A DNA stretch of 64,000 nucleotides from assembly GCF_020166495.1 (NCBI RefSeq), contig NZ_JAINZS010000008.1, positions 1-64,000 of the forward strand, in the 5' to 3' direction. Positions 34,738-59,835 of the stretch are shown here, piece after piece (position 1 is the first letter of the stretch; the number at the start of each line of letters is the position of its first letter). The position numbers and the translations under genes are program-made. This DNA comes from Robertkochia aurantiaca. GTDB taxonomy: Bacteria > Bacteroidota > Bacteroidia > Flavobacteriales > Flavobacteriaceae. The notes under the pieces were generated by a model. The model had not been told where the DNA came from. It saw only the letters and a program-made list of their open reading frames with translations, and ran no database searches.

Positions 34738-34842
34738 GGCTAAGGGCTAAGGGCTAAGGGCTAAGGGCTAAGGGCTAAGGGCTAAGGGCTAAGGGCTAAG
34801 GGTTAAGAGTTAAGGGTTAAGAGTTAAGGGTTAAGAGCTAAG
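34738..34842. repeat. Heptanucleotide array (GGCTAAG)x9 plus 6 variants
   Basis: Nine perfect GGCTAAG units (34738-34800), then six units of form RGYTAAG in which GGTTAAG and AGTTAAG alternate (34801-34842). 105 bp in all, telomere-like in look, starting 9 bp after the era stop. Confidence 0.95.
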
Positions 34843-58476: not shown

Positions 58477-58500
58477 AAACACTATATAGTTATATAAGGA

Positions 58501-58527
58501 AAGGCACCTGTTAAGGTGCCTTTTTTT
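58501..58527 (+). terminator. Terminator of hemL
   Basis: 8-bp stem AAGGCACC/GGTGCCTT, 6-base loop, then seven T. 24 bp after the stop. Confidence 0.88.
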
Positions 58528-58710
58528 ATGGGGTTTCTTTAACGTCTGATATTCCATGGAAAAACGGCGCCGACCGCATGGGATCTGGTTTATGAATACT
58601 TGCCTGTATTGAAAAGTAATTGTTAAGAGCATGCGGAGAGTTGTTAAAGTGTTATTAATGGCGTAACAAATTGATTTCTAAGTAGTCTTATTAATACATC
58701 AATCAATCGA

Positions 58711-59634
58711 ATGAACCACTTAAAAAATCAAAAAATGAACAGTTTAGCATTAATCGGTAGTTTACTCTTAACGGGAAGTGTTGCTACCCAAGTCAGTACA
58801 GAAGAACCCGTTTTTTTGGAAACAGTCAATGAAATAAGAGAGACTGAAACATGTTGTAAGATCGATAGTATGACCGATATTCTTTTTGAAGGGATCAGTT
58901 ATGCAGAGGAAGACGCAGAAATCGTATTAGGTTTTGATACAGCTGAATATCTTCCGGAGAATTTCGATCCGCATGTAGGTGTATTAGAAGAAGTATCATA
59001 CGTAGAGAAAGAAGTTGAGGTAATAATGGGGTTTGACACCCAGGCCTGGCTTCCCGAAGGATTCGATGCTCATGCGGGCAACCTGAACGAGATCGAATAT
59101 ATTGAAGAAGAGTCTGAGGTTGTGTTGGGCTTTGATACCGACGCCTATCTTCCTGAAGGATTCGACGCTCACGCAGGAAATCTTAATGATATCCTGTATG
59201 TGGAAGAAGAAGAGGAAGTCGTTATGGGCTTTGATACGGAAGCGTATCTTCCTGAAGGATTTGATGCTCATGCAGGGAACCTGGATGATCTCGGATATAT
59301 CGAGGAAGAGATCGAAGTTGTAATGGGTTATGATACCACAAAATGGCTTCCGGAGGGTTTTGATGCTCATGCGGGCAACCTGAACGAGATCGAATATATT
59401 GAAGAAGATTCTGAAGTTGTTATGGGTTTCAATACCGGGGATTACCTTCCTGAAAACTTTGACCCACATGTGGGTGATCTCGATGAGATCGTTTACATAG
59501 AAATCGAAGAGCCTGTGATCCTGGGATTTGATACCGCAGCATTTCTTCCGGCGGATGCCGAAAATACCCAGGCTGAAATGGCAGACTTTGATTTCTGCAA
59601 CTTCATCACCAGTGAAATCGTGTATAAAAATTAA
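58711..59634 (+). CDS. Acidic secreted protein made of seven 33-residue repeats
   Basis: 307 residues, very acidic. A signal-peptide-like start (about 1-27) and a Cys-Cys-bearing linker precede seven repeats of exactly 33 residues (about 62-285). Consensus: (D/N)xIxYIEEExEVVxGFDTxAYLPEGFDAHAGNL. The GF dipeptide recurs at 74, 107, 140, 173, 206, 239 and 272. Units 1 and 6 read PENFDPHVG while units 2-5 read PEGFDAHAG. The many Asp/Glu suggest calcium or cation binding, but there is no canonical EF-hand or cadherin motif. A short tail with one Cys follows. No recognised named domain; similar repeats appear in other flavobacterial hypothetical proteins from memory. Single gene with own terminator. 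Confidence 0.8.
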   Translation: MNHLKNQKMNSLALIGSLLLTGSVATQVSTEEPVFLETVNEIRETETCCKIDSMTDILFEGISYAEEDAEIVLGFDTAEYLPENFDPHVGVLEEVSYVEKEVEVIMGFDTQAWLPEGFDAHAGNLNEIEYIEEESEVVLGFDTDAYLPEGFDAHAGNLNDILYVEEEEEVVMGFDTEAYLPEGFDAHAGNLDDLGYIEEEIEVVMGYDTTKWLPEGFDAHAGNLNEIEYIEEDSEVVMGFNTGDYLPENFDPHVGDLDEIVYIEIEEPVILGFDTAAFLPADAENTQAEMADFDFCNFITSEIVYKN

Positions 59635-59680: not shown

Positions 59681-59694
59681 ATTGATCAACAACA

Positions 59695-59753
59695 GACAGT
59701 GAAAGAAGCCACCTCATCGGTTTATATGTAATTACATAGCTTTTTTCACTGTC
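59695..59753 (+). terminator. Long-stem terminator of the repeat protein gene
   Basis: 15-bp stem GACAGTGAAAGAAGC/GCTTTTTTCACTGTC (one G-T pair) with 29-base loop, followed by T-rich DNA. Confidence 0.75.
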
Positions 59754-59835
59754 TTTTATTTTTTTGCTGTCTGATGTGAGTATATTAGTCTCATTATCAG
59801 GCTTTTTTATTTTCAGCTTTTTTTTTAAACTCCTC

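Follow-up and report, generated by a model that had tools for sequence, protein, structure and literature searches.

What is an acidic and strongly repetitive protein of no named family doing in a flavobacterial gene order, between hemL and a phosphatase gene? The question is raised by one open reading frame in a stretch of 64,000 nucleotides of Robertkochia aurantiaca DNA (NZ_JAINZS010000008.1, positions 1 to 64,000; hereafter called the window). The original prediction, made from the letters alone, described a secreted product with 33-residue repeats that might bind cations or act as a scaffold. We followed this up with analyses of the array, of its relatives, of the predicted protein and of the DNA upstream of the gene.

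Organization of the repeat gene

The open reading frame at 58711–59634 is genuine and encodes 307 aa. The true start is probably the Met codon at 58735 (residue 9), because relatives begin at a Met matching this residue, after an A-rich leader; the window sequence before 58735 resembles that leader. On this reading the gene occupies 58735–59634 of the forward strand.

Seven exact repeats had been claimed. The period is indeed exact, at 33 residues or 99 nt, but the sequences differ from unit to unit. A 28-nt core is present in seven DNA copies, each spaced by 99 nt, and an array with period 99 was also found by Tandem Repeats Finder. Residues 33 apart are identical at 119 of 204 positions, whereas 2000 shuffles averaged 16.6 and never exceeded 31. 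Pairwise agreement among units 1–6 is 16–26 of 33 residues, and unit 7 agrees with the other units at 10–15 residues and is without the LPxxF half, so that the array has six full units and a degraded seventh. Unit 1 (58891–58989) and unit 6 (59386–59484) are of an outer type with PENFDPHVG and units 2–5 (58990–59385, 99 nt per unit) are of an inner type with PEGFDAHAG, which agrees with the cap-and-core pattern noted earlier. Degraded unit 7 (59485–59583) keeps an acidic stretch and GFDTAAFLP and has lost xxFDxH; like the other units, it is read on the forward strand. The GF pairs predicted for residues 74, 107, 140, 173, 206, 239 and 272 are found at all seven positions, except that residue 206 opens with GY.

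Codon comparisons among units 1–6 gave dN values of 0.14–0.47 over 15 pairs, with dS values of 1.34–2.96 in six pairs and saturated in nine. The protein sequence has been kept while silent sites turned over, and the repeat units look to be under purifying selection. An opposite-strand open reading frame (58996–59469) overlaps the array and is taken as a by-product. A mobile-element origin of the gene was considered and rejected, there being no match in plasmid or phage collections.

Distribution and conservation of the repeat family

We sampled 249 genomes of the same taxonomic family, the own genome among them, and 70 had a match at E 0.001 or better. Repeats lacking from related genomes would have spoken against the original prediction; this distribution, with units that look to be under purifying selection, is the opposite. 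The own genome has one copy and the other genome of the genus in the sample has three in tandem. In wider samples of 395 genomes each, there were 7 matching genomes for the phylum and 13 for the order, with the own genome in each count and all others labelled as the same family; the share of genomes outside the family is not given for these samples, so the two counts do not prove family restriction. Among named genomes, a scan with the window protein alone returned nothing and a scan with a five-row alignment returned 267 relatives. The best 80 of these 267 were kept and come mostly from Flagellimonas/Allomuricauda/Muricauda, plus Croceivirga, Croceitalea and Eudoraea.

Scanning the window and the collected loci for the motif gave 178 family ORFs in 121 sources, with at least one ORF (L033 361) that looks spurious. 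These ORFs contain one to six full units, the window gene having the most. The constant period holds for the window gene but is not a property of the family, in which spacing is 31–37 in 480 of 484 unit pairs, mostly 34 and 35. The consensus over 659 units is roughly FDLNSIIYIEEEEEIDLGFDTxDYLPEGFDPY. Conservation over these units is high at L(-8) (90%), G (83%), F (83%), T (78%), Y(-1) (83%), P(+6) (81%) and Y(+7) (86%); the unit scan demanded LPxxF and the next residue rather than these positions, and part of the motif was used in collecting the ORFs. The five-residue acidic tract has 54–80% D/E per position.

The window protein matched no Pfam or NCBIfam family above curated cut-off, its best NCBIfam match being NF046095 at 28 bits against a cut-off of 80. 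Neither of two PDB sequence searches gave a significant match (best E 0.24 and 0.19), and the RTX nonapeptide GGxGxDxUx is absent from the protein. Among 45 family members searched at E 0.01, no Pfam or NCBIfam family occurred in more than two. Identity with the Cj0814 family (NF046095, E 1.7e-6) was rejected, as it was matched by only one of the 45 members, the window's own, with about one-third of the cut-off score. DUF2240, an acetyltransferase family and other weak Pfam hits were discarded on the same grounds, no Pfam family being found at E 0.01 in more than two of the 45. The claim that the repeat matches no named family thus stands in the libraries searched.

Charge, predicted export and predicted disorder

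With a pI of 4.05, a net charge of about –71 and D/E at about a quarter of residues, the window protein is as acidic as had been proposed. A signal peptide is predicted at 58735–58785 (forward strand; residues 9–25), judged by eye, with possible cleavage after S-V-A. By a permissive rule without control, 166 of the 178 family ORFs have a hydrophobic N-terminal stretch, and an [ASTV]xA site near the signal end is found in only 114 of 178. The earlier claim of secretion is supported to the extent of this N terminus; export itself is a prediction that we consider very probable. The window protein has no lipobox, with no Cys before residue 48, and no type IX sorting-domain model was among its four NCBIfam hits with E up to 10, in a search whose filters lose weak matches.

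AlphaFold2 was run on residues 9–307 with 44 relatives (45-row alignment) and on a three-unit stretch aligned with 93 others of that size (94-row alignment). Mean pLDDT was 54.5 and 64.5, respectively, with a pTM of 0.19 in both, and this low confidence may stem from a shallow, register-ambiguous repeat alignment rather than from disorder. The full-length model contains an N-terminal helix, in keeping with the predicted signal peptide, and almost no other secondary structure. In the three-unit model, block-mean pLDDT exceeded 70 only in blocks with YLPxxF and what follows, and the LGFDT block was lower. Mean hydropathy (0.477) falls below the Uversky boundary for the charge of the protein (0.504), which is the disordered side. 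Foldseek returned no match for the window protein model, which is a low-confidence query. The folded scaffold of the original prediction is not borne out by these runs, including the one on several units. The absence of a predicted fold disfavors an ordered scaffold and favors a disordered array of short linear motifs, and we consider it likely from these models that the chain is disordered, with short docking motifs that recur on acidic spacers.

Transcription unit and putative promoter

The gene names hemL, lysS, Era, SCO1-like, DUF420-like, rnr, rpiB, Spy-like and S9-like are provisional labels that we gave by looking at the sequences, and they are our assumption throughout. The rho-independent terminator of the upstream hemL gene (58493–58530, forward strand) has a 17-pair stem and a U tail (–20.9 kcal/mol, z –5.4), was called by the rule-based scanner and sits between hemL and the repeat gene. 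A probable terminator of the repeat gene itself lies at 59694–59765 on the same strand, with a long stem at about 59694–59754 and a U-rich tail (–25.2 kcal/mol, z –4.8); the scanner did not call it, its loop being larger than the rule allows. Both stems fold well and the gene is alone in the window, as expected of the monocistronic unit that had been proposed, but this does not extend to the relatives, where a second repeat gene lies just downstream in 43 of the 80 named loci (best of 267).

Upstream of the gene, at 58662–58691 of the forward strand, is a putative ECF-sigma-type promoter consisting of CGTAACA (–35), a 17-nt spacer from GTAAC to GTC, and AGTCTTAT (–10). GTTAAA at 58643–58648 (forward strand), 20 nt before GTAAC, may be an A-rich upstream element or an extra site, and similar elements occur in many relatives. 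AAC in the –35 element and GTC in the –10 element are ECF-like features, and most of the long repeat genes have both, at fixed spacing just upstream of the start. When gaps of 14–20 nt were allowed, GTAAC and GTC were found in 105 of 178 family upstream regions, and in 101 the gap was exactly 17. Sorted by ORF length, the 17-nt form precedes 102 of the 115 ORFs that reach 170 aa versus 3 of 63 shorter ones. Some long genes are miscounted as lacking a promoter, either since a wrong start was taken (e.g. L115, L037, L052) or, in the count over the 178 upstream regions, since GTCTT-like letters were demanded (L061). The 80 named loci (best of 267) span 1.10 Mb and contain 79 sites of the form GTAAC-N17-GTC plus T, of which 78 are just before a long repeat gene; the reversed-pattern control in the same 1.10 Mb gave 9. 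Two named loci, L148 and L151, are without a site; each is the second locus of a genome whose other locus is of the standard kind. No site in these best 80 loci was assigned to a gene other than a repeat gene, so that control by the promoters of neighboring genes was rejected.

Of the 105 repeat-gene sites, 85 have A directly before GTC, 19 have C and one has G; the window has AGTC. According to the accessible part of a study on this group, it is a CGT –10 box that points to an ECF sigma factor (PMC9723704). Owing to the prevalence of A before GTC, our confidence in ECF-type control of the repeat gene is lower than it would otherwise be, and we still regard such control as highly probable on the strength of the promoter pattern. 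Short ORFs (<150 aa) have TAnnTTTG, given in the same part of that study as the main –7 box of the group (PMC9723704), within 220 nt upstream in 42 of 59 cases, a count made without control.

The same promoter signature before envelope genes

In the own genome, pattern one gave 7 hits (reversed control 0) and pattern two gave 3 (reversed control 2). Pattern one does not cover the GTCTTA form; the site in the window belongs to pattern two, for which the excess over the control is small. Eight of these ten sites are upstream of a same-strand gene, within about 125 nt, and two are intragenic. The eight genes are the repeat gene, a MacB-type ABC operon and genes for an HlyD-type adaptor, an S41 protease, a TonB-receptor-like protein, a CarboxypepD_reg protein, an alpha/beta hydrolase and a 57-residue membrane-type protein. 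In three other genomes the hits numbered 14 (reversed control 1), and six further genomes gave another 14 (reversed control 0), among which were four repeat genes, four MacB-type operons and one site with no clear gene after it (L237, G102). A longer, stricter pattern, run on 8 genomes, hit three sites, each of them at a repeat gene. Across the 10 genomes including the own one, sites stand before a MacB-type gene in 8 (G000, G223, G201, G086, G120, G077, G211 and G102) and, with the strict patterns, before a repeat gene in 7 (G000, G201, G086, G229, G120, G126 and G211); the MacB-type label comes from Pfam for two permeases and one ATPase and from likeness for the others.

The MacB-type ABC genes with an ECF-type site in these eight genomes are in L174, L197, L198, L204, L239, L241, L242 and L243, and in the first four of these loci the gene comes after a run of SCO1-like/DUF420-like genes. 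The 57-residue membrane-type gene of the own genome (L170, 1551–1721) lies between rnr-like and rpiB-like genes. A similar site is present at the corresponding position in the other genome of the genus (L195), where our script found no ATG-started ORF.

Candidate sigma factor

Thirteen matches to sigma region 4 in the own genome are over cut-off. When the surroundings of all 13 were scanned, a close ECF-type site was found before one sigma gene only (L183; G000:C1:193849-194355, minus strand). After this gene come an anti-sigma-like gene, which had no Pfam match, and two DUF4252 genes, and an S41 protease gene is divergent to the sigma gene. The sigma factor has matches at E 1e-15 in 220 of 249 genomes, a few of them weak and maybe not orthologues. 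GTAACA-N-GTC with the 17-nt gap precedes the sigma gene in 26 of the 30 best orthologue loci, own included (L207–L236); of the four without a site, three were read on the wrong strand and L229 has GTTAC. In the three of these 30 loci that were inspected for it, the order of sigma, anti-sigma-like and DUF4252 genes, with a divergent S41-type protease gene, is the same. Upstream of a second ECF sigma gene in the own genome (L180; G000:C7:267095), the site is looser and its gap is 18 nt.

A match to the DUF4252-adjacent sigma factor occurs in 70 of 70 repeat-positive versus 150 of 179 repeat-negative genomes (Fisher 4e-5), a co-occurrence that is suggestive only, being confounded by phylogeny and genome size. 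Sites before the sigma genes have CGTC and a –10 flank different from that of the repeat genes. Because of this difference we hold the assignment loosely; the sigma factor next to the DUF4252 genes is our first choice as regulator of the repeat gene, with a probability that we place slightly above even.

Gene neighborhoods and branches of the family

In the 80 named loci (best of 267), a Met-zincin gene is divergent upstream in 69 (DUF5117/DUF4953 by Pfam in one member), a Na_sulph_symp-type symporter gene is convergent downstream in 77, and a Spy-like gene is nearby in 65 (DUF4890 by Pfam, below its cut-off). From the gene order found in relatives, the window retains hemL, the repeat gene, a PhoD phosphatase gene and lysS. 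In a third branch, the repeat gene is just upstream of genes for a LytS-type histidine kinase and a LytTR regulator on the same strand (L048, L050, L058 and L060; Pfam in L048). The ECF-type site is absent from the upstream regions of these four kinase-linked genes and of a fifth repeat gene (L035) that is not followed by a kinase gene, and two of the five (L048 and L058) matched a pattern for GTTTCA-like direct repeats 21 nt apart. Since the kinase-linked repeat genes and nearly all short companion genes are without the site, ECF control is not universal to the repeat family. A fourth branch lies directly after two alpha/beta hydrolase genes in three loci (L053, L061 and L063; Pfam in L053).

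Apparent ORFs of 83–86 aa cluster in 21 loci (L033, L034 and relatives), in the divergent intergenic region between the Met-zincin gene and the repeat gene. They are more likely conserved non-coding DNA than a gene.

Possible role of the repeat protein

Our best explanation for the locus as a whole is that the repeat protein is an exported effector of an ECF-sigma envelope response that binds multivalently outside the cytoplasm; it is a tentative reading, to which we give a little less than an even chance. In such a response, the sigma factor would be released and RNA polymerase would use the GTAAC-N17-GTC promoter at 58662–58691. The product would cross the inner membrane by its Sec signal and then stay mostly unfolded, each unit providing an acidic, extended spacer and a conserved docking motif, LGFDTxxYLPxxF(D/N)(P/A)(Y/H). 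Six motifs per chain could give avidity for a periplasmic or surface target, either a folded partner or a cationic ligand. Clients, which may be stress-exposed proteins or cationic toxic peptides, would be held or buffered, in parallel with the MacB-type exporters and S41 proteases whose genes have the same kind of promoter. Among possible jobs of the protein we think this last step, the holding or buffering role, the most likely, at odds well below even.

The high acidity could instead mean that the protein is a buffer for divalent cations or metals, in which acidic tracts bind Ca2+/Mg2+ or metals and order only when loaded. RTX repeats, which are exported, acidic, tandem calcium-binding repeats of length 9 with a GGxGxD core and are unfolded without ligand, offer a precedent, and the repeat protein is like them in being tandem and acidic and, by prediction, exported and unfolded. 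The D/E content, the charge and the acidic tract of each unit all fit a metal buffer, and an ion-induced fold would escape an AlphaFold2 run without ions. Yet the best-kept positions are hydrophobic or aromatic (L, G, F, Y, L, P, F, Y) rather than ligand oxygens, no known ion-binding repeat was matched, and the repeat length is 33 rather than 9, without a GGxGxD core. We consider this reading improbable, and the same conservation of the aromatic motif, better than bulk charge demands, makes it very improbable that the chain is a bulk polyanion giving osmotic or desiccation protection without a specific partner, even with its high charge and stress-type promoter. No greater probability is given to an ordered repeat scaffold or surface adhesin: the constant period of the window gene and a unit number of one to six across the family would suit one, but neither AlphaFold2 nor Foldseek, the latter with a low-confidence model, gave a fold, the family spacing is not one value, and neither a type IX sorting model nor a lipobox was found in the searches above.

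The motif might also act as a feedback ligand, binding the S41 protease, the anti-sigma factor or another sensing member and so setting the length of the response. An S41 protease gene, named by Pfam, is divergent to the sigma operon of the own genome, a different S41 gene carries an ECF-type site, and in four loci a dedicated LytS-type kinase gene and a LytTR regulator gene follow the repeat gene. Against this, the sigma factor is common without a repeat gene, as in the 150 repeat-negative genomes, and we regard a feedback role as only marginally more probable than the scaffold or the polyanion. An extension that we rate a shade higher, and still as a long shot, is that these proteins make up a class of their own, new among effectors of envelope stress: disordered chains, exported and ECF-induced, whose motif binds a component of stress sensing or proteolysis and whose unit number (one to six) tunes avidity, with a second branch of the family under a dedicated LytS/LytTR pair.

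The preferred reading, an exported effector of an ECF-sigma envelope response, resembles known systems in part. Spy and CpxP are stress-induced periplasmic chaperones, and Spy is a folded all-helical dimer. As we read it, the repeat protein is likewise small, exported and made in envelope stress; unlike Spy, it is predicted to be unfolded and is repetitive, and no sequence relation was found. In Flavobacterium psychrophilum, the accessible part of the same study describes a motif, SM6, with a CGT –10 box, which precedes genes for T9SS components, Band-7 proteins, an ECF sigma/anti-sigma pair and others (PMC9723704). The sites described here are similar in that an ECF-type site precedes envelope genes and a sigma gene. 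They differ in that the box is mostly AGTC rather than CGT; that part of the study lists no such repeat protein among SM6 genes and gives no –35 sequence for SM6 (PMC9723704).

A literature search, in which the motif itself was not a query and most subscription journals were outside coverage, found no description of the repeat family. The family thus appears to be unnamed, and a stress-induced exported protein is a known kind of thing. To our knowledge, exported disordered motif arrays have rarely been described in bacteria. The family is common in Flavobacteriaceae and has no model in the curated libraries searched. The promoter link turns a hypothetical repeat protein into a testable candidate envelope-stress effector, and the promoter signature offers a handle for mapping an ECF regulon in Flavobacteriaceae.

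The window also contains shorter tandem repeats. At 34738–34842 the heptamer GGCTAAG occurs 15 times in tandem (92% matches), nine bases past the stop codon of an Era-like GTPase gene, and at 145–243 there are two abutting heptamer arrays, TACAATC in 7.4 copies (100% matches) and ACCACTC in 7.0 copies (92%).
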